From Burkholderiales bacterium (GTDB lineage Bacteria > Pseudomonadota > Gammaproteobacteria > Burkholderiales > Burkholderiaceae_C), in contig CANHNO010000016.1 in assembly GCA_947462065.1 (NCBI GenBank), positions 1 to 32,020 on the forward strand: 32,020 nt of DNA. Direction: 5' to 3'. Below the pieces are notes generated by a model that worked only from the letters and a program-made list of their open reading frames with translations, was not told the DNA's origin and did not search any database. This document shows positions 2,740 through 29,260 of the stretch, piece after piece. The translations under genes and the position numbers were made by a program. Within the stretch, counting starts at the first letter, position 1, and every line of letters starts with the position of its first letter.

Positions 2740-4125
2740 TCAGGTCTTGCTGATCGCAAAGCTCTTGGCGTACGCATCGGCCTTGGCCGGGTCGAACTCC
2801 TTGCCCATGATCTTGTAGGACTTGTACGCGCCCTCGGGCACCTTCTGGTCGAGCAGCTTTATCTGTTTTTTCGCGTCGGTCAGCAGGAAGACCTGCTCGG
2901 CGATCTGCTTGTAGTTGACCTCGCCTTTCAGGTAGCCCCAGCGCTTCATCTGCGTCAGCATCCACACCGCCATGCTCTGCCACGGCACCGGGTCGAAGTC
3001 GGCGCGATCAGGCACGTTCTTGATGCCGCCGAGGCCGTCGGCGAACTTGCCGGTCAGAACCTGGTTGACCACGGTCTCGGGCTGGTTCAGGTAGGCCGTC
3101 GGGCTGATGACCTTCGCGATCAGCTCACGGTTCTTCGGCTCGCGTGCCATCGCGGCGGCGGTCAGCACCGCGCGGTACAGCGCGGCGAAGGTGTTCGGGT
3201 TCTGCTTGATGAAGTCGTCGCTGACACCGAAAGCGCAGCAGGGGTGGCCGTCCCAGATCTCCTTCGACAGGATGTGGATGAAGCCGACCTCGTCGTAGAC
3301 CGCGCGCTGGTTGAAGGGGTCCGGGCCGAGGAAGCCGTCGATATTGCCGGCCCGCAGGTTGGCCACCATCTCGGGCGGCGGCACGACGCGGATCTGCACA
3401 TCGGTGTCCGGGTTCAGGCCGCTCTCGGCGAGGTAGTAGCGCAGCAGGAAGTTGTGCATCGAGAACTCGAACGGCACCGCGAACTTGAAGCCCTTCCAGT
3501 TCTTCGGGTCACGGTTGTCCTTGTGCTTCAGTGCCAGCGTGATCGCCTGGCCGTTGACGTTCTGGATGGTGGCCACGCGCATCGGCTGGGCCACCGAGCC
3601 GATGCCCATCGAGATCGCCAGCGGCATCGGCGACAGGAAGTGCGAGGCGTCGTGCTCCTTGTTGAGCATCTTGTCCCGGATCAACGCCCAGCCGGCGGTC
3701 TTGTTGAGCTGGACGTTCAGACCCTGCTGCTTGTAGAAGCCCAGCGGGCTCGCCATGATCAGCGGCGTGGCGCAGGTGATCGCGATGAAGCCGAGCTTCA
3801 GGTCGGTTTTCTCCAGCGAACCCTTGTCCTGCGCCATGGCTTCGAGAGCGCCCATCGGCAGCAGCGAAGCGATCGCGGCGCGCGCGGTGCCGGCGCCGAC
3901 GGCCTGCAGGAAGCGACGGCGCAGCGGTTCGGACGGAAACAACGCCTTGACCAGCGTCGCCTCGATGAAGTCGCGCGAGTAGGACTCGGCAGACAGCGCC
4001 TGCGTCTCGGCCTGGTGATCGGCGGCGCTGTGGTCACGACCGCAGCCGCACTTCATCATCAGCGGCCGGTCCGCGTTGTAGGGGTCGAAGCTGTTCGTGG
4101 GCTTGGGGTCGTTGTTGCTGCGCAT
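2740..4125 (-). CDS. CmpA/NrtA-family ABC transporter substrate-binding protein with twin-arginine-like signal
   Basis: ATG at 4125 (MRSNNDPKPTNSFDPYNADRPLMMKCGCGRDHS...); RRRFLQAVGAGTARAAIASLLPMGALEAMA Tat-like segment; NrtA-like body (LKLGFIAITCATPLIMASPLGFYKQQGL). Confidence 0.9.
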   Translation of the reverse strand: MRSNNDPKPTNSFDPYNADRPLMMKCGCGRDHSAADHQAETQALSAESYSRDFIEATLVKALFPSEPLRRRFLQAVGAGTARAAIASLLPMGALEAMAQDKGSLEKTDLKLGFIAITCATPLIMASPLGFYKQQGLNVQLNKTAGWALIRDKMLNKEHDASHFLSPMPLAISMGIGSVAQPMRVATIQNVNGQAITLALKHKDNRDPKNWKGFKFAVPFEFSMHNFLLRYYLAESGLNPDTDVQIRVVPPPEMVANLRAGNIDGFLGPDPFNQRAVYDEVGFIHILSKEIWDGHPCCAFGVSDDFIKQNPNTFAALYRAVLTAAAMAREPKNRELIAKVISPTAYLNQPETVVNQVLTGKFADGLGGIKNVPDRADFDPVPWQSMAVWMLTQMKRWGYLKGEVNYKQIAEQVFLLTDAKKQIKLLDQKVPEGAYKSYKIMGKEFDPAKADAYAKSFAISKT

Positions 4126-4166
4126 GCGGTCACTCCAGTAGATATGGGAGTGAGCGTACGCAACGC

Positions 4167-4181
4167 GCATGCAACTGGCCA
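4167..4181 (-). promoter_or_regulatory. Candidate sigma54 (-24/-12) promoter for the NrtA-like/cynS cluster
   Basis: Minus-strand TGGCCAGTTGCATGC: GG-N10-GC spacing with TGGC and TGC cores, about 41 nt upstream of the ATG at 4125. Confidence 0.45.
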
Positions 4182-4243
4182 TCGCACGAGTGGGGAAAGC
4201 TGCGTAGGGCTGGCACTACAAACGGCAGTGCGCCCCCGCGGGT

Positions 4244-4633
4244 CTAGCGCTGGCGCCGCCGCTGTTCGCAGAATCCGCAGTGCTGCACCTGCGGCCGCCC
4301 GGCAAGCCGATGGCGTTCGATCGGCGCGTCGCACGAAGCGCACAGGCCATAGCTGCCGGCCTCCAGCCGGGCCCGAGCAGCTCGCACCTCGCTCAGGACC
4401 ACCTGGTCCGGGCGCGCGCCGGGCAATGCGGCGGTAGCTGCCGTGTGGTCGTTGCCGGACACCGGCGACTCGCGCAGCAGCCGATCCATCGTCTGCGACA
4501 TGTCGACCAGTCGCCGTTCGAGGTCGTCCAGGCGATGCCGGAGCAGGCTGTTCATCGGCTCTTCCATCGCAGGGCCGTGGCTGTGGCTCGGCATGGCGTA
4601 TCGAGCGGTCCAGAGAGTCGGTGTCGTCTGCAT
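4244..4633 (-). CDS. DksA/TraR-type C4 zinc finger family protein
   Basis: 129 aa; C-terminal YGLCASCDAPIERHRLAGRPQVQHCGFCEQRRRQR has DksA/TraR C-x2-C...C-x2-C pattern. Confidence 0.85.
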   Translation of the reverse strand: MQTTPTLWTARYAMPSHSHGPAMEEPMNSLLRHRLDDLERRLVDMSQTMDRLLRESPVSGNDHTAATAALPGARPDQVVLSEVRAARARLEAGSYGLCASCDAPIERHRLAGRPQVQHCGFCEQRRRQR

Positions 4634-4784
4634 GGCAGTCCTCCGGGATTCAGCCCTGCGGTGGCGCAGGACGAGACACGATGTTGTCAGCACACGGGTC
4701 GTCGAGTTTGCGTTCGATCAAACAATCGACGCGGGACCGGATGACGCCCCATCGGGCGTTGCCGCGCCGCACGGCGCAGCGTGC

Positions 4785-5456
4785 TCACTCGTGCAGCAGT
4801 TCCTGCTTCACCGCGTACAACGCCAGTTCGACGTCGTTGCGCGCGCCGGTCTTGTCGAGGATGCGGGCGCGGTAGGTGCTGACGGTGTTCGACGACAGGA
4901 TCAGCTGCTCGGCGATCTCGCCGACGCTGCGACCGACCGCGAGCAGACGGAACACCTGGTACTCGCGGTGCGACAGCCGCTCGTGCAGCGGCTCGTCGGC
5001 TGAGCGCGTCGCGCCGACCCCGGCCCCGAGTGCCGTCGCCATGTGCTCGGCCACCGTTGGCGTAATGAACAGCCCGCCCGCCGCGACCTTGCGGATCGCG
5101 GCGGACATCTGCTCCGAGTCGGCACTCTTGTTCAGATAGCCGGCCGCGCCCAGCTTCAGGCTGCGCACCGCGTACTGCTTGTCGGGGTAGGTGCTGAGCA
5201 TCAGCACCGGCAGCTTCGGGAACTCCGTCTTCAACTGGCGCAGCACGTCGAGTCCGTCGCGTTGCGGCATCGCGATGTCCATCAGTACCACCTTGATACC
5301 CAACGCGTCGGCCGTGCTGGCCTCGCGCACCTTGCGGATCGCGTCCGGACCGTTGTCGGCCTCGCCGGCCACCACGATGTCGCCGGTGTCGGCGAGCATC
5401 TGCTTGATGCCCTGGCGCACGATCAGGTGGTCGTCGCAGATCAGCACGCGGATCAT
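4785..5456 (-). CDS. NarL/FixJ-family LuxR-type response regulator
   Basis: 223 aa; receiver MIRVLICDDHLIVRQGIKQML...KVVLMDIAMPQRDG and HTH LSHREYQVFRLLAVGRSVGEIAEQLILSSNTVSTYRARIL. Confidence 0.93.
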   Translation of the reverse strand: MIRVLICDDHLIVRQGIKQMLADTGDIVVAGEADNGPDAIRKVREASTADALGIKVVLMDIAMPQRDGLDVLRQLKTEFPKLPVLMLSTYPDKQYAVRSLKLGAAGYLNKSADSEQMSAAIRKVAAGGLFITPTVAEHMATALGAGVGATRSADEPLHERLSHREYQVFRLLAVGRSVGEIAEQLILSSNTVSTYRARILDKTGARNDVELALYAVKQELLHE

Positions 5457-6667
5457 GGCAAGGACTCACCGGATGGCAGCGGTATCGGCATGGTGAGCCG
5501 GACGCAGGTGCCGTGGCGAGGCACGCTGTCGATCTCCAGCGTGCCGCCGAAATGGCCGGCCCGCTCGCGCATGCCCATCACGCCGTAGCTTCGCGGATGG
5601 TTCAATGCCGACGGCTCGGCGCCGACGCCGTCGTCGCGAACCTCGACATGCAAGGTCGCTTGCGGCGGGCCGTCGACATACAGCCGGATGCGCACGGAAT
5701 GCGCCTGTGCATGCCGGGCGACATTGCTCAGCATTTCCTGGAAGATGCGGAACACCGCGATCGCCCAGCGGTCTCCTCCCGGGCCGCTCGGTGGGTCGGT
5801 GTGTGCGGCGACATGCATCTGCAGGTCGGCGCGCAGCTCGGTGGTCTCGATGAACTCCTGCGCCTGCCATTCGAGAGCCGCCCACAAACCCTGATGGTCG
5901 AGGATGCTCGGGCGAAGGTCGGTGATGATGCGGCCCAGGTTGTCCACAGCGGTGTCGATCGTGCGGCCCATGCCAAGACACTTGCCCCTGAGCTCGGGCC
6001 GGTCCTGCACCCGCTTCTCGACCCAGCCAACGTCCATCTTCAAGGCGACCAGCAGCGAGCCCAATTCGTCGTGGATCTCGCGGGCGATGCGGGTGCGCTC
6101 TTCCTCACGCACCGACTCCGAATACGCCGACAGCTCACGCAATGCGCCCAGCGCCTGCGTCAGCTCGGCGGTGCGCTCTGCGACCCGGCGTTCGAGTTGC
6201 TCGTGAGATTGCTGCAGCAGCGACTCGCTGCGCTTGCGCTCGGTGATGTCGCGCATGGTGACGACCGCCCCCTGCACCACGCCGCCGTCGAGGATCGGGT
6301 GTGATGAGTACTCGGCCGAGAACGCGCTGCCATCGGCTCGCCACAGCACCTCGTTGTCAATGCGACAGGGCAAGCCGCGGCGGAAGGCGTTGAAGATCGG
6401 ACAGTCGGCCTCCGGGTAGGGTATCCCGTCGGCATGGGTATGGTGGATCAGCTCATGCATGTTGCGGCCGAGCACAGCATCAGTGGCGTAACCCAGCATC
6501 TCGGCCGCTGCGCTGTTGACGAAATTGCAGCAACCGAACATGTCAACGCCGAAGATGCCTTCGCCGGTCGACTCGAGCAGCAGCTGAAGTTGCTCCGTCC
6601 ACGCTCCGCCCTCGGTCGGTACGATCGGAGCAGACGACGGGGTAGGACGCAGGGTGAGGGAGGGCAT
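5453..6667 (-). CDS. PAS-domain sensor histidine kinase (HisKA_3/NarX type)
   Basis: Start ATG at 6667 (MPSLTLRPTPSS...); PAS segment LLLESTGEGIFGVDMFGCCNFVNSAAAEMLG; EERTRIAREIHDELGSLLVALKMDVGWVEKR dimerization/H-box; ATPase motif VRDDGVGAEP; ATGA overlap with response regulator. Confidence 0.92.
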   Translation of the reverse strand: MPSLTLRPTPSSAPIVPTEGGAWTEQLQLLLESTGEGIFGVDMFGCCNFVNSAAAEMLGYATDAVLGRNMHELIHHTHADGIPYPEADCPIFNAFRRGLPCRIDNEVLWRADGSAFSAEYSSHPILDGGVVQGAVVTMRDITERKRSESLLQQSHEQLERRVAERTAELTQALGALRELSAYSESVREEERTRIAREIHDELGSLLVALKMDVGWVEKRVQDRPELRGKCLGMGRTIDTAVDNLGRIITDLRPSILDHQGLWAALEWQAQEFIETTELRADLQMHVAAHTDPPSGPGGDRWAIAVFRIFQEMLSNVARHAQAHSVRIRLYVDGPPQATLHVEVRDDGVGAEPSALNHPRSYGVMGMRERAGHFGGTLEIDSVPRHGTCVRLTMPIPLPSGESLP

Positions 6668-6810
6668 GGAGGTGCACGGTTCTGGTGCGAATTCCGGGGT
6701 GCTGCAAACGACGTGCCACCTGCGGCCGGGCCACTGTGAACAGGACATCGGGAAGAATCTCGGCTGGTCTTCGACCCAGCCGATTCATCCTTGCGACGAG
6801 ATCCACCGCC

Positions 6811-7305
6811 ATGCCACCCAGCCCGCTTCGCTCGCTGCTCGCAGCCGTTGGCCTTGCGCCGAAGCCTTCGGCGATTCGAGCCGACGCTGCCCCGGCGCAG
6901 GCGCCTGGCGACGCGCCCTCGCTCAGCCTCAGCGCAGCCGAATGGCAGCAGCGTCTGAGCCCAGCGCAGTTCCACGTGCTGCGTGAAGAAGGCACTGAGC
7001 GGCCTCATTCCAGCGCGCTGAATCGGGAAAAGCGCGCTGGCGTCTACGCCTGCGCCGGCTGCGGCACGGCACTGTTCAGCTCGGAAATGAAGTTCGACAG
7101 CGGTACCGGCTGGCCCAGTTTCTTCACCACTCTGCCCAGCGTGTTCGCGACAACGACTGACTATCAGCTGATCTTCCCGCGCACCGAGTACCACTGCGCC
7201 TGCTGCGGTGGCCACCACGGCCATGTGTTCAACGATGGCCCGGCGCCCACGGGCCATCGCTATTGCAACAACGGAGTCGCGCTGACGTTTCACCCCGCGG
7301 ACTGA
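6811..7305 (+). CDS. msrB: Peptide-methionine (R)-S-oxide reductase MsrB
   Basis: [10 protein letters not shown]...; [25 protein letters not shown]...[36 protein letters not shown]. Confidence 0.95.
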
Positions 7306-7351
7306 GCTCAGGGCGCGCACCCGACAATCGCGCATTCCATCGAAAGCCCGC

Positions 7352-8134
7352 ATGCCCAAACCCACGACCATTCCGCAGTCTCGCGTCCACCGCGACCTGA
7401 CCGACGCCGAGTTCGCCGAGCTCGACGATCTGCTGACGAAGACACCCGAGCCGCTGGAGCCGGTCGATGTGGTGATGCTTGATGGCTTCCTCTGCGGCGT
7501 GCTGGTGCAGCCAGTGCTGCTGGAGACTGCGACCTGGCTGCCGCATGTCTTCGACTTCGATGGCACACCGCTGCCGGAGGATGTCGATGCCGCATGGCTG
7601 GAACGGACTACCGCGCTGATTCTGCGCCGCCACGCCGCGCTGACCCGGGCGATCGCCGAAGACGGCTGGTTCGACCCGCTGGTGCTCGAAGCCGACGAGA
7701 ACGCGCAAGCGGACTCGGCGGGCGATGGCGAGAAGGCGCCCCAGGACGAGCTTCTGGCTGGATTGCACCCCGTGTCGCAGTCGCTGATGCCCTGGGTCGC
7801 CGGTTTTCAGCACGCCACGCAGTGCTTCCCGGACCTCTCCGAACTGAGCGACGACGCGGTACTGTCGGCACTGGCGCGGCTCTACCGACACCTGCCGGCC
7901 GAGAGCGACGACGAGCGCGAGGTGGTCGCCACGCTGGATCGGGAGCAGCCACTGACCACGCTCGATGATGCGATCGAGGATCTGGTGATCGCGGTGGCCG
8001 ACCTGTCCGACCTGACCCGCAAGGCGCGCTTCAAGGTTGAGACCGTCAAGCGCGACGCGCCCAAGGCTGGTCGCAACGATCCCTGCCCCTGCGGCAGCGG
8101 CAAGAAGTTCAAGGCCTGTCACGGCAAAACCTGA
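7352..8134 (+). CDS. UPF0149/YecA-family protein with C-terminal SEC-C metal-binding motif
   Basis: 260 aa; [13 protein letters not shown]...; C-terminus [21 protein letters not shown]. Confidence 0.92.
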
Positions 8135-8138
8135 TCAG

Positions 8139-8936
8139 ATGCGCCTGCAGCTGCTGTCCGACCTGCACCTGGAAACCGAGGTCTTCGAGCCGCAGCCAGC
8201 GCCGGGTGCCGAGTTGCTGGTGCTGGCCGGGGACGTGGACAGCACCTGGCGTGAACTCGACCGATTCGGCAGTTGGCCGGTACCGGTGATCTTCGTCCCC
8301 GGCAACCACGAATTCGACCAGCGCGAGCTTGACGACGCGACGCCCGCGCTGAGGGCACGCTGTGAATCGCTGGGCATCACGATGCTTGAGAAGCAGTGCT
8401 GCATCCGCACCGATGTGCAGGGCCGGCGCATCCGTTTCGTTGCCACCACCCGCTGGAGTGATTTCGAGCTGTTCGGCAGCGCCCAGCAGGCTCGGGCGAT
8501 GCGTGCGGCCACCTACTTCGTCGACGTGATGCGATCGACACACCACGGCGCACCGTTCGATGCTGCTGCGGTACGCGCCCTGGCGCTGGCCTGTCGCGAC
8601 TGGCTTGCTGCGGAATTGGTGCGCGCACCGGCGTCGCCCGACGAGACCTGGGATGCGACGGTCGTCGTCACCCACTACGCGCCCAGCGTGCGCAGCGCCG
8701 ACCCGCGCTACGGCAAGCAGCCTGGCACCGCCAGCTTCTGCAACGCCGACGATGAGCTGCTGCCACACGCCGATCTGTGGATCCACGGCCACCTGCATAG
8801 CCGCCATGACTACCGCATCGCGCATCCGAGGTGCCCGAGCGGCAAGAGCGAGACGCGGGTGATCTGCAACGCCCGCGGCCACAGCCGCAAGGGTGAGGCC
8901 GATCACTACAACGGGCTGCTCACCGTCGAGGTGTGA
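8139..8936 (+). CDS. Metallophosphoesterase
   Basis: ATG at 8139; MRLQLLSDLHLET...LVLAGDVDS...FVPGNHEFD...IHGHLHSRHDYRI motifs. Confidence 0.92.
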   Translation: MRLQLLSDLHLETEVFEPQPAPGAELLVLAGDVDSTWRELDRFGSWPVPVIFVPGNHEFDQRELDDATPALRARCESLGITMLEKQCCIRTDVQGRRIRFVATTRWSDFELFGSAQQARAMRAATYFVDVMRSTHHGAPFDAAAVRALALACRDWLAAELVRAPASPDETWDATVVVTHYAPSVRSADPRYGKQPGTASFCNADDELLPHADLWIHGHLHSRHDYRIAHPRCPSGKSETRVICNARGHSRKGEADHYNGLLTVEV

Positions 8937-11902: not shown

Positions 11903-12418
11903 TCAGAACGGGATGTCGTCGTCCATGTCGTCGAAGCCGGTCGACGATTTCGCGGCGGGCTTGGTCGCAGCCGGGCGGCTGGCCGGCGGTGCGCTGCGAG
12001 TCGCTGGTGCGGCGCGGCTTTCGCCCCGGCCGCCACCACCCTGGTCGTAACTCGAATCGCCACCGGCATCGCCGCCCATGCCTTCACGGCCGCCCAGCAA
12101 TTGCATGTTGTCGGCGATGACCTCGGTGGTGTAGACGTCCTTGCCATCCTTGTCCTGCCACTTGCGGGTCTTCAGCCGGCCTTCGACATAGACGGGGCGG
12201 CCCTTCTTCAGGTACTCGCCGGCGATCTCGGCCAGGCGGTCGTAGAAGACGACGCGATGCCATTCGGTTTCCTCCACCTTGTCGCCGCTGGTCTTGTCCT
12301 TCCAGTTGCGGGTGGTGGCGACGCTGATGTTGCAGATCGCGTTGCCGTTCGGGGTGTAGCGCACCTCGGGGTCGCGACCCAGGTTGCCGATGAGGATGAC
12401 TTTGTTGATCGAGGCCAT
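11903..12418 (-). CDS. ssb: Single-stranded DNA-binding protein
   Basis: [42 protein letters not shown]...; acidic tip DDMDDDIPF. Confidence 0.97.
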
Positions 12419-12518: not shown

Positions 12519-14471
<1,953 letters not shown>

Positions 14472-14643
14472 GCTGCCCGGACTGCACGCCTGTTGAACAC
14501 GCAAGCCCCAAGAAGGGACACGAGTTCGTCAGGCCCGCGGGCTGTCCATCCACGTGAACCCGGCTTGTTGTGCTGTGGAGCGATCTCTATGCTATTTGCC
14601 GCTTGATGTAAGGAAACGTGTCCGTTCATTGCAGAATCATCTG

Positions 14644-20077: not shown

Positions 20078-20620
20078 CTAGCCCGCCTGATCGCTGGCCG
20101 GGCTGAGTCTGAAGCCGAAACGCGCAGGCAGATCGGCGAAGCGAGCCTCGCGCAAGGTCCAGCCGCCGCACTCGATTGCATCAGCCGCAGTTTCCATGTC
20201 CAGTGTGTGCACCAGGCCCAGTCCGAGGTCGGTGGAAATGAACAGGCGTCCGCGTTCATCAAGCCAGGCCGAGTCGTACTGCGCCAGCGCGCCGCTGTGG
20301 CTGCGCAAGACGACGGTCTGATCTGCGCCTGGGCGCTGCAGCCGCCAGACCCACGGCGCGGCTTCGAGCTCGACATACACCCGCTGCGGCCCGTTCTGGA
20401 AGTACCAGGCGCCAGCCTCGTCGCAGGCGTAATTGCGCTCGATGAATTCGCGCAGCCCGACATGTTCGAGGCGGCTGCCCTTGGGATGCGGGAAACGGCC
20501 GGCGGCCTGGACATGGTCATCACGCAGGTACCAGTTTCCGCGCGCATCCAGCCCCAGCCAGCCGCGGCAGTGCGGTACGTTCGGCCATTTCGCGAGCGCC
20601 GCAGCAACGATGTCGTCCAT
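20078..20620 (-). CDS. Conserved hypothetical protein (MDDIVAAALAKWPNVPHCRGWLGLDARGNWYLRDD-type)
   Basis: 180 aa from ATG at 20620; resembles a conserved betaproteobacterial protein of unknown function as I recall it; family number not certain. Confidence 0.75.
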   Translation of the reverse strand: MDDIVAAALAKWPNVPHCRGWLGLDARGNWYLRDDHVQAAGRFPHPKGSRLEHVGLREFIERNYACDEAGAWYFQNGPQRVYVELEAAPWVWRLQRPGADQTVVLRSHSGALAQYDSAWLDERGRLFISTDLGLGLVHTLDMETAADAIECGGWTLREARFADLPARFGFRLSPASDQAG

Positions 20621-20637
20621 GGCTGATGGTCGCCGAT

Positions 20638-21648
20638 TCAGCCGCCGTGCGCGTGCAGCCAGCGCACCACTTGCTCGGGCATGGCTTGCAAGTGCCCGGG
20701 AAACGCTCCGCTGGCGAACCCGGCGTGCCCGCCGCGCGCCGGCTGCCACAGGGTCACATGGCGTCCGACCTCTTGTGGGCCTGGCAATGAAGCAGCCGGC
20801 ACGAAGGGATCGTTGCGCGCGTTGATCACCAAGGCCGGGATGCGGATCCGATGCAAATGCGGTTTGGCCGAGCCGCGATGCCAGTAGTCGTCGGTGCTGC
20901 GAAAGCCGTGCACCGGTGCGGTGTAGAGGTTGTCGAACTGGTACAGATCGCCAGCCGCCAGCATCTTGTCGCGGTCGAACAGGCCCGGATGGCTTTTCAG
21001 CTTCAGCAGCGTTTTCGGGCGGAGCGAACGCATGAACATTTGCGTGTAAACAAGGCGGTTGAAGCCACGACCGATCGCATGCCCGCCAGCGGCGAGATCG
21101 ATCGGTGATGACACCGCTGCCACCGCACTGACCGCGCCAGCGGCGGTCTCGCCGGCCTCTTCCGCCCAGCGTAACAAGGCATTGCCGCCAAGCGAGACTC
21201 CCACCGCCAGCCGGGGCCCGGCGTGCAGCGTGCGAAAGCGCTCTAGGATCCAGCCGACTTCTTCGAAATCGCCTGAGTGATAGGCGCGTGCGGTGAGGTT
21301 AGGCTCCCCGGAACAGCCACGGAAATGCGGCACTGCATACCGCCAGCCCAGTCGCTGCGCGACTCGCGCGTATGCACGTGCATAGTGACTGGACGACGAG
21401 CCTTCAAGGCCGTGGAAAAGGATCAGCAGGGGCGCTGCGGGATCGCTCGCGCTCGCCTCGGGTTCGAGCCAGTCGACATCTATGAAGTCGGCATCTGGCG
21501 TGGTCCAGCGCTCGCGCTGATAGGGCGGCTTGGCGCCATCGATGCGCTTGCACACCAGCGCCGGCCAGATCGACTGCAGGTTGCCGCCGATCGCGCCATC
21601 GCCCAGCAGCCATCCTGGCGAGGAGTGCCACAAGCCATCTGGAATCAA
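20638..21648 (-). CDS. Alpha/beta hydrolase, YheT family
   Basis: 336 aa; LLILFHGLEGSSSSHYARAYARVAQRLGWRYAVPHFRGCSGEPNLTARAYHSGDFEEVGWIL. Confidence 0.92.
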   Translation of the reverse strand: MIPDGLWHSSPGWLLGDGAIGGNLQSIWPALVCKRIDGAKPPYQRERWTTPDADFIDVDWLEPEASASDPAAPLLILFHGLEGSSSSHYARAYARVAQRLGWRYAVPHFRGCSGEPNLTARAYHSGDFEEVGWILERFRTLHAGPRLAVGVSLGGNALLRWAEEAGETAAGAVSAVAAVSSPIDLAAGGHAIGRGFNRLVYTQMFMRSLRPKTLLKLKSHPGLFDRDKMLAAGDLYQFDNLYTAPVHGFRSTDDYWHRGSAKPHLHRIRIPALVINARNDPFVPAASLPGPQEVGRHVTLWQPARGGHAGFASGAFPGHLQAMPEQVVRWLHAHGG

Positions 21649-22091
21649 TGCAGCACGGCGCTCGATTCGAGGACTTCCTGTGCTTCGCGTGCTGTGCCCG
21701 GACTGGCGTGGTGAGCGACGAGCCGCCAGCCCAGTGCAGTCTTCACGTACACATTTGTCGCGATGACCCAGGCCGATTGGCGGCCCTTGTCGGTGTGCAC
21801 CTGCACGCGTTCGAGCACGCTGTGCACCGCGCTGAAGTGAGAGTCGACGCGCCGGACTTTCTCTGGGTGGACATCAAGCGGACCCTTCGCGAAGATCCCT
21901 GCGAAGCTCTCCCGGATCACGCCCACGCCGATCAGGCGCGGACCACCGGGGTGCACGCAGTAGACGTCGTCTTCGTCGCTCCACACCGACATGAAGCGAT
22001 CCAGGTCGGCGTGCTGCATCGATTCATAAAACTGTTGCTCGGCCTCGTCAGGAGAGGACAGCGCCATCACGGGGGGGTTCGGAGAATTCAT
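21645..22091 (-). CDS. SnoaL-like / NTF2-like nuclear transport factor 2 family protein
   Basis: 148 aa; EQQFYESMQHADLDRFMSVWSDEDDVYCVHPGGPRLIG...; overlaps YheT start by ATGA. Confidence 0.88.
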   Translation of the reverse strand: MNSPNPPVMALSSPDEAEQQFYESMQHADLDRFMSVWSDEDDVYCVHPGGPRLIGVGVIRESFAGIFAKGPLDVHPEKVRRVDSHFSAVHSVLERVQVHTDKGRQSAWVIATNVYVKTALGWRLVAHHASPGTAREAQEVLESSAVLH

Positions 22092-22307
22092 TCCACCTTC
22101 CTCTTCAGCACGCGAGCTGAAAGATTCGAGCCAGCCAACCGATATTTCATTGTACGAAGCCTATAGGAGGCGCCCGCTCATGCCCACCCTTTCCGCCGCC
22201 CGCACAGCCATCGTGACCCCCACCTTGGTCGATGTCGGCGTCCAGCCTGATCGCCCCCTGGGACTGTGGGCCATTCCCGGCAGTGGCGCGCCGACCGGCC
22301 CAGTGCT

Positions 22308-23870
22308 TCACGTCGGCAAGCTGGGGCTCCGAGTGGTGGCTCCCGGGGTGGGGCCTTCGGGGAGGAACACGCTGAAAGTCGAGCCCTCGCCCAGGGTGCT
22401 CTCGACGTCGAGGCGACCTGACATCAACTGAATCAGGCCGCGCGTCACCGCCAGGCCGATCCCGGTACCCTCGATCGCGCTGTGACGGTGATCGAGTCGG
22501 TTGAACGGCTCGCCCAGCGTGGGCAACTGCGCTTGGGAGATTCCGACACCCGTGTCGATGACCTGCACGCGCACGCCGTCGGTCGCTGACTCTGCCAGCA
22601 CTCGCACGGTGCCTTCGGGTCGGTTGTACTTGATGGCGTTGCAGACCAGGTTGAGCACCACCTGACGCAATCGCGTCGCGTCGGCATGTACCGTCAGCGA
22701 CTCTCTGGCCTCGATCGGCAACAGGCGCACCGATGCAGCGTCAGCGAGCGGGTGCAGCATGTCCATGCATTCGGCCAGCAATGCCGGCAACTGCACTTCC
22801 GTGCAGTCGAGCGCAAGCTGTCCTGATTCGATGCGTGTGAGATCCAGTAACTCGCTGATCATCTGCAGCAGATGGTCGCCAGCTTCGTGGATCAGCGCCA
22901 CACGGCGGCGCTGGTTGGGCGACAGCGGGTCGCTTTCGTCAATCTGCAGCAGCTGCGCAAAGCCCATCACCGCGTTCAGCGGCGTGCGCAGCTCGTGGCT
23001 CATGTGCGACAGGAACTCGGTCTTGGCCCGATTGGCCGCCTGTGCCATCGCGGCCGATTGGCGAGCCAGCTGCAACTCATGCACTTCCGTGGAGTCTTCG
23101 AAGTAGCCGTACCACAGCACGCCGCCGTCACTTTCGCGCTGAGGCGTCGAGGTGCCGGTCATCCAGCGCAGCGCGCCGTCAGGGCGGCGCAGCCGGAAGT
23201 CGAAGCGCCATGGCGTGAGCGTGCGTGCCGACAGCTTCATCGCTGCGATGGTCGAGCCGTAGTGCTCGCGCTCGATCATCCGCAGCACCGCAGCCCCATC
23301 GCGCATCACCTCGCTGGCAGTCAGGCCCAGTACGTCGAAACAGCTTTCGCTGACGTAGCAGAACGCGCCGTCGCCGTCGCCGTTGTGGCGGTATTGGTAG
23401 ATCACGCCGGGCACATGGCGCGCTGTTTCGCTCAGCTGCGCCGCGATGGCCAGCGCACGGCTCTCGGCCTGATGGCGCTGAGTGACATCGACCAGCGTAC
23501 CGACCACGCGCAGAGGCTTTCCGTCGGTGCTCCACTCGACGATACGACCGCGTTCGGCGATCCATCGCCACTGGCCGTCCTTTGTCCGAGCGCGGTATTC
23601 GTGCTCGTAATAGGGCAGCTCGCCACGGGCATGGCGCAGGAAGTGCTCGTCGTTTTCTGCGCAGTCGTCCGGGTGTATCAGAAGGTTCCAGGCCTGCTGG
23701 GTCAGTCGACCTTCCTCCGGGCCATAGCCCAGCAGGTTCAGGTCAGAGTCAACACCCGAAAGCACATCGGTCTGCGGGTTCCATTCCCACACGGAGGTGC
23801 CAGCGCCGATCAACGCGGCGCGCACCAGGGTTTCGTAATCGCGCCTTGCAGGATCGCTGTCGCGGCTCAC
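22308..23870 (-). CDS. PAS-domain HisKA/HATPase sensor histidine kinase
   Basis: 520 aa; two PAS regions; FLSHMSHELRTPLNAVMGFAQLL H-box; VIDTGVGISQAQLPTLGEPFNRLDHR and GTGIGLAVTRGL motifs. Confidence 0.92.
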   Translation of the reverse strand: MSRDSDPARRDYETLVRAALIGAGTSVWEWNPQTDVLSGVDSDLNLLGYGPEEGRLTQQAWNLLIHPDDCAENDEHFLRHARGELPYYEHEYRARTKDGQWRWIAERGRIVEWSTDGKPLRVVGTLVDVTQRHQAESRALAIAAQLSETARHVPGVIYQYRHNGDGDGAFCYVSESCFDVLGLTASEVMRDGAAVLRMIEREHYGSTIAAMKLSARTLTPWRFDFRLRRPDGALRWMTGTSTPQRESDGGVLWYGYFEDSTEVHELQLARQSAAMAQAANRAKTEFLSHMSHELRTPLNAVMGFAQLLQIDESDPLSPNQRRRVALIHEAGDHLLQMISELLDLTRIESGQLALDCTEVQLPALLAECMDMLHPLADAASVRLLPIEARESLTVHADATRLRQVVLNLVCNAIKYNRPEGTVRVLAESATDGVRVQVIDTGVGISQAQLPTLGEPFNRLDHRHSAIEGTGIGLAVTRGLIQLMSGRLDVESTLGEGSTFSVFLPEGPTPGATTRSPSLPT

Positions 23871-23913
23871 GGTGACCCTGACGGCCGCCGCCGTTGCTTG
23901 CCTCGGTGCGCTA

Positions 23914-24129
23914 TCAATGCGCGTGAATCTTTTCGCCCGCCTTCAGCGAGTAAACGGTGCCGCAATAAGGGCACTTTCCCGAGCCGGTGGTGACCACATC
24001 AATGAACACCTTCGGGTGATTGCTCCAGAGCGGCATCTTCGGGTTCGGGCAAGTGACCGCACCCGGCCCCTGCAGATCGTGCGCGGTGACTTCGATGGCG
24101 CTGGACGAGGTGGATGGCGCTGTGCTCAT
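23914..24129 (-). CDS. zf-CHCC domain (NDUFS6-like) small zinc-finger protein
   Basis: 71 aa; VTCPNPKMPLWSNHPKVFIDVVTTGSGKCPYCGTVYSLK. Confidence 0.9.
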   Translation of the reverse strand: MSTAPSTSSSAIEVTAHDLQGPGAVTCPNPKMPLWSNHPKVFIDVVTTGSGKCPYCGTVYSLKAGEKIHAH

Positions 24130-24196
24130 GATCGGCTCCGTGGAGATGTGCGTGACGGGGGCTGGATCAGCGTATTGCGGTGGCTGGATACAGGCT

Positions 24197-25120
24197 TCAG
24201 ACCGGCGTCAGCCACTCGGCGTACTTCGGGTTGCGGCCGTTCACGATGTCGAAGAACGCAGACTGGATTTTCTCGGTGATCGGCCCGCGAGAACCTTGGC
24301 CGATCTCCAGCCGGTCCAGTTCACGGATTGGCGTCACCTCGGCGGCCGTGCCGGTGAAGAAAGCCTCGTCGGCGATGTAGATCTCGTCGCGGGTGATCCG
24401 CTTTTCGACGACCTTCAGCCCGAGGTCCGCGCAGATCGCGAAGATGGTGTTGCGGGTGATGCCGTTCAGCGCACCTGCCGACAGATCCGGCGTGTAGACC
24501 ACCCCGTTCTTGATGATGAACAGGTTCTCGCCGGCGCCTTCGCTGGCGAAGCCGCTCGCGTCGAGCAGCAGCGCCTCGTCGTAGCCGTCGTCGGTGGCTT
24601 CCATGTTGGCCAGGATCGAATTGGTGTAATTGCTCACCGCCTTCGCCTGGGTCATCGTGATGTTGACATGGTGACGCGTGTAGCTGCTGGTCTTCACGCG
24701 GATGCCGCGCTTCATGCCGTCTTCGCCGAGATAGGCGCCCCAGGTCCACGCGGCGACCATCAGGTGAATGGTGTTGCCCTTCGGGCTGACGCCGAGCTTC
24801 TTGTCGCCGATCCAGGTCAGTGGCCGGATGTAGCCGCTTTCCAGCTTGTTCTCGCGCACGACACGGCGCTGGGCCTCCATCACCTGATCGATGGAGAAAG
24901 GGATCTTCATCCGCAGGATCTTGGCGCTGTTGAACAGCCGCTCGGTGTGCTCGCGCAGCCGGAAGATCGCCGTGCCCTGCTCGGTCTTGTAGGCGCGCAC
25001 CCCTTCGAAGGCGCCACAACCATAGTGCAGCGTGTGCGACAGCACATGGATCTTGGCGTCGCGCCACTCCACCAGCTCGCCATCCATCCAGATCTTTCCG
25101 TCACGATCGGCCATCGACAT
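24197..25120 (-). CDS. ilvE: Branched-chain amino acid aminotransferase
   Basis: 307 aa; MADRDGKIWMDGELVEWRDAKIHVLSHTLHYGCGAFEGVRAYKT...GAGENLFIIKNGVVYTP. Confidence 0.96.
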   Translation of the reverse strand: MSMADRDGKIWMDGELVEWRDAKIHVLSHTLHYGCGAFEGVRAYKTEQGTAIFRLREHTERLFNSAKILRMKIPFSIDQVMEAQRRVVRENKLESGYIRPLTWIGDKKLGVSPKGNTIHLMVAAWTWGAYLGEDGMKRGIRVKTSSYTRHHVNITMTQAKAVSNYTNSILANMEATDDGYDEALLLDASGFASEGAGENLFIIKNGVVYTPDLSAGALNGITRNTIFAICADLGLKVVEKRITRDEIYIADEAFFTGTAAEVTPIRELDRLEIGQGSRGPITEKIQSAFFDIVNGRNPKYAEWLTPV

Positions 25121-25215
25121 GGCGAGACTCCAAACTGTTCATTAGCCCATGATTTTAGGCGCCGACCTGGGGCAGTTCCGAGGCGTTGTCTGAATGGGAG
25201 CCTGCGGCGCGCTGG

Positions 25216-25449
25216 TCACAGGGTGCGCACCAGCGCGATCGCTTCCTTCAAGCGCTCCTGGCCTCGCGGTGCAGGTCGTACCTCGCCGGCCAGGCCGACC
25301 TCACCGAACGCAATGAACCCGCGTGGCAGTGGCTTGCCGCGCAGACTGCTCTGGATGGCCAGCATCACCGCCAGGTCGGCCGCTGGCTCCGCGATACGCA
25401 CGCCACCTACCGCGTTGACGAACACGTCCTGATCGTTGCAAGCGATGCC
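25216..25449 (-). pseudogene. Truncated radA 3'-end copy (no start, internal C-terminal deletion)
   Basis: Encodes GIACNDQDVFVNAVGGVRIAEPAADLAVMLAIQSSLRGKPLPRGFIAFGEVGLAGEVRPAPRGQERLKEA identical to RadA of 27418-28788, then IALVRTL-stop, skipping most of the RadA C-terminus. Confidence 0.92.
25240..25449. repeat. 210-bp direct repeat, left copy (pairs with 27544-27753)
   Basis: 206/210 identical by direct reading; constant offset 2304 bp. Confidence 0.95.
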
Positions 25450-25456
25450 CGATGGG

Positions 25457-25487
25457 CTGTCCGTAATCAGGCTTCAATTGCGGACAG
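25457..25487. other. 11-bp-arm dyad / hairpin at the edge of the radA remnant
   Basis: CTGTCCGTAAT-CAGGCTTCA-ATTGCGGACAG; one mismatch in the arms. Confidence 0.75.
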
Positions 25488-25592
25488 GAACTGCCCGAGG
25501 CGGCGTAACCCGAGAGATCGCCACCAACCTGCATTCGCGGATTGGTGGACGGTCGCTCATTGCATGTAGCCCAGGACTCCCGGCGTGCCGGG

Positions 25593-27257
25593 TCAGTAGG
25601 TGGCGTCGACCTGCAAGATCGCGGTGGTGCCACTGATCTCGTGGCCCAGGATCACCAGCGGCTTGCCGTTGGGCGACTTGGCGGCCGGAATGAACAGCAC
25701 ACCCTCGGGGCCGAGCTCGCCGGTGTCGCTGGTGCGCAGGTTCAGGTAGGTCACAAAGTTGGGGGCCGTGGGGGTAGACACGTCGTAGGCCATCACGCCG
25801 CCGATCCGCTCCAGCCCGACAAAGGCGAAGGTCTTTTTGCCGATCTTGCCGACGGAAACGCCCTCCGGCTCCGGGCCCTTGTTCGCGCTGCGGCCGTCGA
25901 GCGTGTGGGTTTCGTGGTTGGCGTTGAAGAGCGCGTTGGGCAGCGTGGTGGTGCGCTGCTCGAACTGATCGCCAGAGTCCCATACCGGCATGATGTCGGA
26001 GTCCCAGATCGTGAATGAGCGGGCACCGAAGCTGTAGAGCTCGGTGCACTCCCCGGCCCCATTCTTGCCAGTGGTGCCGTCACCTGTGGGGTTGGCGGTG
26101 ACCCGCAGGCGGCCCAGGTTGGAGTCGAGGATGAGCGCGGACGCGTTGGGGAACACCGTCGGGTCCAGGCCGGCCGCGCAGTGTGTACGCACGCGCGTTT
26201 CGTCGCTGTAGCCGGGCCAGTCGGCGCGGGCCTCGCCTTCGTTGGCGGTCACCAGGTAGGTCTTGCCGTCGATGGTGAAGCGGGAAATCGCGTCGGGCTG
26301 GTACATGCCGCGCACCGGGTAGTTGGCGATCTTGATCGACGGCGTGCCGCTGTTGGTGTCGGTGCCGCCGTCCTCGTCGCTGGCATCCAGGCCGTTGCCG
26401 GCCAGGTTGTGGTCCTTGGTGCCCAGGGGCTTGACAGACAGCACCGTCGCTGCCGCGATGTCGACGACGGCGATGGCGTTGTTCTCCTGCAGCGTAACGT
26501 AGGCGATGGCGCTGTTCTCGCTGACCGCGATGTACTCTGGCTCGAAGTCCTGAGCGGCGTTGGCGCCCGGGCCGAAGATGCGCACGCCCAGCGCGCGCAA
26601 TGCGGCTTCCTGGCCGATGAAGGCCTTGAAGTCGGCTGTCGCGACGGTGGGGTTGGTGCCGCCGTTGACGGTGATGATGCTGACAGAGCCTTCGGGATCG
26701 ACGGATTCGGCTTCGCCGTAGCTGTTGGGCTCGCCTTCGTTGGCCACGATCACCTTGCTGCCGTCGGGCGTGAAGGTCAGCATGTCGGGCTGCGAGCCGA
26801 CGGTGACGTGGCCAAGCAGGCTCAGATTGCTGGCGTTGTAGAAGGCCACAGTGCCGGGGTCGGTCTTGGGAGATGCCTGAATCGCCACAGCAATCAGGCC
26901 GTTGTAGGTCGACACGCTGTTGACGGTGTCGCCGAAGACCCCCACATTGATCGTGCCCACCAGCGCCGGCTGGGTCGGGTCGGCCAGATTCAGCACATCG
27001 ACGGTGCCGATGGCGCCGTTGACGACAAACAATCGCTTGGTAGTGGCGTCGTAGGCCGTGATTTCAGCCGCGGCCGGGGCGCCGCCGTTGTAGCCGCCGA
27101 TGCGGCTGAGGGTGAAGCTCACGGGAGTCGGCTCCTCGGGCGTACCGCCGCCGCCGCCGCATCCGGTCAGGACGGCGACGGACAACACACCGGCACTGAG
27201 CAGCGCCAGCGGCAGACGACAGAGGGAGGGATTGCGACGGGTGGCCGAACGGTACAT
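25593..27257 (-). CDS. Choice-of-anchor I family / alkaline phosphatase-like lipoprotein
   Basis: ATG at 27257; lipobox-like LSVAVLTGCGGGGG; body with LVVNGAIGTVDVLNLADP, VIVANEGEPNSY, YVTLQENNAIAVVD, FEPEYIAVSE, GPEPEGVSVG, LGHEISGTTAI typical of this family. Confidence 0.88.
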   Translation of the reverse strand: MYRSATRRNPSLCRLPLALLSAGVLSVAVLTGCGGGGGTPEEPTPVSFTLSRIGGYNGGAPAAAEITAYDATTKRLFVVNGAIGTVDVLNLADPTQPALVGTINVGVFGDTVNSVSTYNGLIAVAIQASPKTDPGTVAFYNASNLSLLGHVTVGSQPDMLTFTPDGSKVIVANEGEPNSYGEAESVDPEGSVSIITVNGGTNPTVATADFKAFIGQEAALRALGVRIFGPGANAAQDFEPEYIAVSENSAIAYVTLQENNAIAVVDIAAATVLSVKPLGTKDHNLAGNGLDASDEDGGTDTNSGTPSIKIANYPVRGMYQPDAISRFTIDGKTYLVTANEGEARADWPGYSDETRVRTHCAAGLDPTVFPNASALILDSNLGRLRVTANPTGDGTTGKNGAGECTELYSFGARSFTIWDSDIMPVWDSGDQFEQRTTTLPNALFNANHETHTLDGRSANKGPEPEGVSVGKIGKKTFAFVGLERIGGVMAYDVSTPTAPNFVTYLNLRTSDTGELGPEGVLFIPAAKSPNGKPLVILGHEISGTTAILQVDATY

Positions 27258-27307
27258 CGGTGGGGCTCCTGTTGAAAACCGAAACCCTTTGACTTTGACA
27301 ATATTTT

Positions 27308-27325
27308 GTGAAAACTGAGTGAAAA
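27308..27325 (-). promoter_or_regulatory. Pho-box-like 7-4-7 direct repeat upstream of the phosphatase-like lipoprotein gene
   Basis: Minus strand TTTTCAC-TCAG-TTTTCAC; perfect 7-bp repeat, 11-bp period, in an AT-rich upstream region. Confidence 0.35.
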
Positions 27326-27417
27326 AAGAAAACCTCGAATATTGAGAAGATATGGGGAAACTTGAGCAGTTTGTGTCGGGTCGGCCCGATGCTCGGGCCC
27401 GGCTGCGCACGCAGCGT

Positions 27418-28788
27418 CTACAGACCCCGCACCATGTCGATGGCCTGTTCGATTCGCTCCACCGCATGGATCGTCAGCCCCTCGATGGGCTTCTTTGGCG
27501 CATTGGCCTTGGGCACCACGGCCACGCTGAAGCCCAGCTTCGCCGCTTCCTTCAAGCGCTCCTGGCCTCGCGGTGCAGGCCGCACCTCGCCGGCCAGGCC
27601 GACCTCACCGAACGCAATGAACCCGCGTGGCAGTGGCTTGCCGCGCAGACTGCTCTGGATGGCCAGCATCACCGCCAGGTCGGCCGCTGGCTCCGCGATA
27701 CGCACGCCACCCACCGCGTTGACGAACACGTCCTGGTCGTTGCAAGCGATGCCGGCGTGGCGGTGCAGCACCGCCAGCATCATCGCCAGCCGGTCCCGGT
27801 CCAGCCCGACGCTGAGCCGGCGCGGGCTGGGGCCCCCGCTGTCAACCAGTGCCTGAATCTCCACCAGCAACGGTCGCGTACCTTCCAGCGTGACCAGCAC
27901 GCAGGAGCCCGCCACCGGATCGCCGTGTGTGGACAAAAAGATCGCGCTGGGATTCGCCACGCCCTTCAGGCCGCGCTCGGTCATCGCGAACACGCCGATC
28001 TCGTTGACGGCGCCGAAGCGGTTCTTGATGGCGCGCACCAGCCGGAAGCTGCTGTGGGTGTCACCTTCGAAATAGAGCACCGTATCCACGATGTGCTCCA
28101 GGACGCGCGGCCCGGCCAGCGCGCCTTCCTTCGTCACGTGGCCGACCAGCACGATGGTGGTCCCGCTCGATTTCGCGATGCGCGTCAGCTGCGCCGCGCA
28201 TTCGCGCACCTGCGCAACGGAGCCCGGCGCTGAAGTCAACTGGTCGCTGTAGACCGTCTGGATCGAATCGACCACGCACACCACGGGCTGCTCTGCGGCG
28301 ATGGTGGCGGCGATCTTCTCCAGCTGGATCTCGGCAATGACCCGCACCCGCGAGCCGCCCTGCGCCTCACCCAGACCCAGCCGCCGCGAGCGAAGGGCGA
28401 CTTGCGCACCCGACTCCTCGCCCGTCACGTACAGCGCGCGCACGTTGCGCGACAGCGCGTCCAGCGCCTGCAGCAACAGCGTCGACTTGCCGATCCCCGG
28501 ATCGCCGCCGATCAGCACCACGCCACCGGCGACGATGCCGCCGCCGAGCACGCGATCGAGCTCGTCGATGCCGGTGGGCAGCCGGTCGACGTCCGAAGCC
28601 TCGATGTCGCCCAGTGTGGCCACCGGCAGCGCTCCGGCCAGCGACTGGTAGCGGTGCTTCGGCCCGGCGCTTTCAGCGACCGACTCGACCAGTGTGTTCC
28701 ACGCCTCGCAGGACGGGCACTTGCCCAGCCACTTCGGACTGGTGCCGCCGCATTCGGTGCAGGTGTACAGCGATTTGGGTTTGCTCAC
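27418..28788 (-). CDS. radA: DNA repair protein RadA
   Basis: 456 aa; zinc finger CTECGGTSPKWLGKCPSCEAWNT; GGDPGIGKSTLLLQ; KNRFG motif; Lon-protease-like C-terminus. Confidence 0.97.
   Translation of the reverse strand: MSKPKSLYTCTECGGTSPKWLGKCPSCEAWNTLVESVAESAGPKHRYQSLAGALPVATLGDIEASDVDRLPTGIDELDRVLGGGIVAGGVVLIGGDPGIGKSTLLLQALDALSRNVRALYVTGEESGAQVALRSRRLGLGEAQGGSRVRVIAEIQLEKIAATIAAEQPVVCVVDSIQTVYSDQLTSAPGSVAQVRECAAQLTRIAKSSGTTIVLVGHVTKEGALAGPRVLEHIVDTVLYFEGDTHSSFRLVRAIKNRFGAVNEIGVFAMTERGLKGVANPSAIFLSTHGDPVAGSCVLVTLEGTRPLLVEIQALVDSGGPSPRRLSVGLDRDRLAMMLAVLHRHAGIACNDQDVFVNAVGGVRIAEPAADLAVMLAIQSSLRGKPLPRGFIAFGEVGLAGEVRPAPRGQERLKEAAKLGFSVAVVPKANAPKKPIEGLTIHAVERIEQAIDMVRGL
27544..27753. repeat. 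210-bp direct repeat, right copy (inside intact radA)
   Basis: See 25240-25449. Confidence 0.95.
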
Positions 28789-28819
28789 CCGAAGACTGTA
28801 GCCGGCCCTTGGGCGTGTA

Positions 28820-29260
28820 TCACTCGTGGCCGACCTTGCCTCGTGAGGCCTTCACCTGCGCTCGAATGCCTTTGCCCTCTAGCCGCCGCTGCTTCGAGCC
28901 GTAGGTCGGCTTCGTCGGTCTGCGCACGCGCGGCGGCGAGGCGACGCTGTCGATCAGTTCCTGCAGCCGCATCAGTGCGTCGATGCGGTTCGCCTCCTGG
29001 CTGCGCGAGGTCTGCGCCTTGATGACGACCACGCCCTCGGCGGTGATGCGCTGGTCGCGCAGCGCCAGCAGCCGCTGTTTCACGCCGTCGGGCAGCGATG
29101 AGGCCTGCACGTCATAGCGCAGGTGTACCGCGCTGGAAACCTTGTTGACGTTCTGGCCGCCAGCGCCCTGTGCGCGGATCGCGGTGATCTCGACCTCGTG
29201 TTCGGCCACCACCAAGCTGGGCGAAATCACGGTGCGCCGTGCCTCAGGCGTCGCCGTCAA
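28820..29260 (-). CDS. arfB: Peptidyl-tRNA hydrolase / alternative ribosome-rescue factor ArfB
   Basis: RAQGAGGQNVNKVSSAVHLRYD GGQ motif; basic C-terminal tail KPTYGSKQRRLEGKGIRAQVKASRGK. Confidence 0.93.
   Translation of the reverse strand: MTATPEARRTVISPSLVVAEHEVEITAIRAQGAGGQNVNKVSSAVHLRYDVQASSLPDGVKQRLLALRDQRITAEGVVVIKAQTSRSQEANRIDALMRLQELIDSVASPPRVRRPTKPTYGSKQRRLEGKGIRAQVKASRGKVGHE

Follow-up and report, generated by a model that had tools for sequence, protein, structure and literature searches.

Partial duplication of radA around a lipoprotein gene: a probable scar of gene acquisition in a member of the Burkholderiales

How does a single gene come to lie between two partial copies of a conserved neighbour gene, with no recombinase beside it? 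A Burkholderiales draft genome (assembly GCA_947462065.1; 252 contigs, 86% complete, the one genome representing its species) raises this question in contig CANHNO010000016.1, the whole of which (C16; 32,020 nucleotides) was analysed and is referred to here as the window. An initial annotation had suggested that a lipoprotein gene entered by homologous recombination in radA at one end and illegitimate joining at the other, or else that it is the residue of an element targeting radA. From comparison with relatives, we conclude with moderate confidence that the locus is a gene-acquisition scar, produced by homologous recombination in radA and one illegitimate joint through a single crossover by a re-circularised fragment. 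This is a known kind of event, and no new mobile element.

Sequence comparison bore out the direct repeats described initially: positions 25240-25449 and 27544-27753 are identical at 206 of 210 sites and lie 2304 bp apart (Table 1). Precise chance statistics were judged needless for a match of 98% over 210 bp, and no third copy of the repeat was found in the draft genome. The right copy lies within an intact radA, as had been stated, the TIGR00416 match extending over the complete gene. Profile matches likewise confirmed that one lipoprotein gene, of the choice-of-anchor I family, is the sole gene between the copies, and no transposase, integrase or other recombinase was found there. The encoded protein scored 554.6 bits against NF038117 (curated cut-off 300, full domain) and 401.8 bits against PF22494, and the GC content of its gene (66%) is like that of the window. 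A literature search on choice-of-anchor I and msp130 homology gave no results.

Table 1. Features of the radA-ilvE region of the window
Feature	Position	Strand	Basis
ilvE, branched-chain aminotransferase, native left flank	24197..25120	-	NF005146/TIGR01122
Native radA 3' end and stop codon, displaced from its gene (tail IALVRTL-stop)	25216..25239	-	Alignment with radA termini of G014, G007 and G008
8-bp repeat CGCTTCCT; the left copy lacks 102 bp (34 codons) here	25240..25247		Alignment; G014 blast offsets
Left radA fragment, approximately codons 345-415	25240..25449	-	206/210 identity with 27544-27753
Non-homologous joint between radA and inserted DNA	25449..25450		Identity with right copy stops here
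Inserted non-coding DNA downstream of lipoprotein gene, two hairpins	25450..25592		Folding; unique in own genome
Lipoprotein gene of the choice-of-anchor I family, start codon ATG at 27257, 554 aa, lipobox LTGC	25593..27257	-	NF038117, PF22494, translation
AT-richer region upstream of lipoprotein gene, 50% GC (window 65.6%)	27258..27417	-	GC content
Imported radA 3' terminus (EQAIDMVRGL-stop), right boundary approximate	27418..27455	-	Nearest to G011/G002/G005/G009 subclade
radA/sms, complete	27418..28788	-	TIGR00416, 603.8 bits
Right repeat copy, within complete radA	27544..27753	-	Sequence comparison

The state of the site before the insertion can be read from the closest relative (genome G014), which is 94-97% identical to the window from position 11903 onward. 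Window positions 20097-25258 and 27438-28804 are adjacent in this genome, and its ilvE (99% amino acid identity) adjoins radA directly downstream. The lipoprotein gene is lacking and the radA-ilvE junction uninterrupted, which is what the initial annotation had expected of relatives without the gene; the plain local state is thus radA-ilvE. Twelve congeners with a radA match were compared, in one of which (G013) radA is divided between two contigs. All 12 lack any close relative of the lipoprotein gene, and several gave no match at all; distant paralogues (41-44% identical) occur elsewhere in some congeners, and in the present genome on contig C29. The genus is variable 3' of radA, where ilvE follows directly, or a short PEP-CTERM-type gene, or other DNA.

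The two radA ends differ, and the initial annotation had taken the tail of the left copy (LKEA-IALVRTL-stop) as divergent and the end of the right copy as native. Alignment of radA 3' ends reverses this polarity. The terminus of the left fragment, EAIALVRTL-stop, is that of G014 and G007 and resembles the termini of G008 and G012; it is the native C-terminus of the subclade, joined to the fragment after an in-frame deletion. The right-copy terminus, QAIDMVRGL, is the atypical one: it matches the subclade of G011, G002, G005 and G009 at 49-52 of 60 nucleotides and the closest relative at 45 of 60. Above approximately 27460 the right copy returns to the G014 type, so that a foreign terminus runs on into G014-like radA sequence. 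The complete gene therefore carries an imported 3' end (the last ~40 bp), and the fragment the old native one. The deleted 102 bp lie between two copies of CGCTTCCT, as seen from the blast offsets in G014, where position 25240 corresponds to both 19268 and 19370; the deletion was absent from every radA sampled. Two other origins of the arrangement were rejected. A pure tandem duplication of radA and the lipoprotein gene is ruled out by the terminus of the left copy, which is native and not imported, and a displaced crossover at the CGCTTCCT sites would have made the upstream radA longer, yet it is intact.

The body of both copies points to a common background. Compared with G014, eight of the ten differences in the left copy also occur in the right copy, and the copies differ from each other at four sites, two private to each; those specific to the left copy are 25279 and 25408. 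Both radA copies thus derive from the same species-level lineage and parted well after the split from G014.

The nearest relatives of the lipoprotein gene found in family-wide and named-genome searches are 70-72% identical and belong to two Roseateles-like species (G562 and G448), in which the gene lies directly 3' of radA and before ilvE, on the same strand. The radA-ilvE interval also holds the gene in one Rhizobacter genome and in genome G513, and in Piscinibacter the gene adjoins ilvE, radA not being in the stretch seen. In a phylogenetic tree the window gene clusters with the two Roseateles-like genes and a single Rhodoferax sequence (support 100/99). Since its closest relatives stand next to radA, the gene probably came from a relative carrying the radA-lipoprotein linkage, and no direct donor was found in these searches.

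We infer the following order of events. The recipient would have started with a plain radA-ilvE junction, as still present in the closest relative, and DNA would have entered from a relative with a choice-of-anchor I gene behind radA. The incoming fragment may have begun near radA codon 343 and taken in the 3' end of the donor radA and the lipoprotein gene, and its ends may have been joined without homology, the joint now lying at 25449/25450. The circularised fragment would then have integrated via one homologous crossover within radA. On the upstream side, full-length radA would thereby have acquired the donor terminus, with the new gene behind it; on the downstream side, an incomplete radA would have remained, leading into the native terminus and ilvE. 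This spare left copy would later have lost 102 bp between the 8-bp repeats. Homologues of comEC and dprA are present in the genome; these permit natural transformation as the route of entry, but do not prove competence.

Two expected products of a single crossover are found: a direct repeat of the homologous segment on either side of the insert, and an upstream copy with the donor and a downstream copy with the native 3' end. There is also experimental precedent. In Escherichia coli supplied with one-ended homology, 56 of 60 integrants were partial duplications, ascribed to re-circularised DNA that had entered through one crossover; the other four were true deletions by homology-facilitated illegitimate recombination (HFIR) (PMC3240628). 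The present locus resembles this Campbell-type integration in having a partial duplication around the insert (109-950 bp in the 14 sequenced integrants, at least 210 bp here) and one non-homologous joint; it differs in that a laboratory plasmid and lacZ were involved there, against a natural insertion with a later deletion in the spare copy here (PMC3240628). One feature speaks against a single crossover. Under this model the left copy should be donor DNA, yet it appears resident-like, with 98% identity to the right copy and an equal distance from G014, in a species known from one genome; the donor tail, in contrast, has diverged. A conspecific donor with an already foreign-tailed mosaic radA would explain this, as would a sister-chromosome template.

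The resident type of the left copy is accounted for by linear HFIR, in which the donor radA end would have anchored a linear fragment and the other end been joined by chance into the radA of a sister chromosome, giving the duplication. The anatomy is also alike, with one homologous end, one non-homologous end, at which radA identity stops at 25449, and no recombinase; moreover, HFIR has been put forward to account for gene 3' ends displaced within T6SS loci of Vibrio (PMC5361080). A further mark of HFIR is microhomology of 3-10 bp at the joint, and no donor sequence beyond the lipoprotein gene was found. However, HFIR normally deletes about as much as it inserts (PMC3240628), whereas a duplication is seen here with no recipient DNA deleted at the joint, the only loss being the 102 bp inside the spare copy. 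A duplication in place of a deletion fits the single crossover by a re-circularised molecule, and we consider linear HFIR unlikely. Of the mechanism suggested initially, homologous recombination in radA with an illegitimate joint thus stands, on the empty site, the foreign and native ends and the radA-linked relatives; its textbook linear form is unlikely.

The occurrence of the order radA-lipoprotein-ilvE in three other genera of the family could mean that the gene originally stood between radA and ilvE and that the congeners have lost it, a later recombination with a lipoprotein-less relative having imported a plain radA-ilvE junction and left the fragment. We find this doubtful: in none of the 12 radA-positive congeners does a closely related gene adjoin radA, several are without any match, and both flanks of the insert are equally near G014 (94-97%), which leaves the insert and the tail as the odd part. 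Still less probable is an assembly or binning artefact, that is, a chimeric contig from two strains. A draft of this fragmentation and completeness invites the suspicion, but the four differing sites between the copies argue against it, two being private to each, as do the left-copy deletion unseen in any sampled radA, the continuous G014-like sequence on both sides and the lack of a repeat at the 25449/25450 joint that could mislead an assembler. The alternative proposed initially was the remnant of an element targeting the 3' end of radA. Taken as an integrase-borne element by which that end is restored, this is barely credible: an intact radA whose terminus has been exchanged, next to the displaced native one, does resemble such integration, and an analogue exists in another family (G060), but the insert holds no recombinase, the 210-bp repeat far exceeds the usual length of an att core, G060 is the only other genome of the order survey with an in-cis radA fragment, the joint sequence has no match in viral contigs, and in plasmids just ordinary radA genes were found among the matches listed.

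That survey covered 388 genomes of the order with a radA match, the present one included. Seven of them had two radA matches, and an in-cis fragment was found only in the present genome and in G060; on checking, radA was split between contigs in four of the others, and the last (G339) had two full copies. With one such fragment among approximately 387 other radA-positive genomes, radA is not a common insertion target; the arrangement recurs, but is rare. In G060 (contig C17, 3157-6429 of locus L059) a complete radA is followed by two ORFs, of 309 aa with a weak FG-GAP match and of 192 aa without a Pfam match, and then by a 189-bp radA 3' fragment with stop codon, 88.9% identical to the intact end; which end is native is not evident from its congeners. 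It is very improbable that DNA in this order repeatedly enters at the radA 3' end without a recombinase, repairing that end and displacing the old one, as here and in G060. If true, this might be due to RadA acting in transformation recombination. The two complete copies in G339 lie on separate contigs (C96 and C93) of one draft genome, are 67% and 66% identical to the query, and represent a paralogue or contamination.

Related arrangements are known. In Neisseria, minimal mobile elements are variable genes between conserved neighbours that are exchanged via homology on both sides, without partial duplication. The present locus is alike in that gene content between conserved neighbours varies and is swapped through the flanks, but one end is non-homologous here and a partial duplication was left. 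In the displaced effector 3' ends of Vibrio cholerae T6SS loci (PMC5361080), as here, a conserved upstream part gains another terminus, and the former one comes to lie 3' of the new gene; in contrast, radA is a housekeeping DNA-repair gene, the terminus that it received is almost equivalent to the old one, and the gene brought in is an unrelated neighbour.

The scar described here records, with unusual clarity, a natural gene gain in which no mobile element took part; it is legible because relatives provide the empty site and the two radA ends tell native from imported. Such scars reveal small gene gains through conserved neighbour genes. They also call for caution, as the seemingly divergent tail of a fragment may be the original end and the complete gene the one with the imported end.

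The inserted DNA just inside the joint (25457-25558) contains an 11-bp stem at 25457-25487 and another hairpin at approximately 25517-25558, with a fold z-score of -1.54, which is not exceptional. No convincing counterpart of 25450-25620 was found among 40 relatives, and a dispersed repeat at the insert end is ruled out, this end being unique in its own genome. Weak matches of 22-33 bp in three relatives are at chance level for 41 genomes; one lies within the radA of G021 (contig C10, 14914-16380). That radA has an in-frame insertion of ~38 residues near residues 109-144, and a 22-bp stretch at the edge of this insertion resembles window positions 25549-25570, probably by chance.

Further differences from the closest relative were observed elsewhere in the window. 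Between radA and an arfB-like gene (window 28804-28829), G014 carries an extra 1.25 kb (5631-6881 of locus L060), which is missing in the window and encodes a protein with a PEP-CTERM-like tail (VPEPASLLL...RR). Relative to window positions 14471-14539, just after a recQ-like gene, G014 has an insertion of ~5.5 kb (3000-8534 of locus L191) with long ORFs, among them an open frame of 1119 codons.
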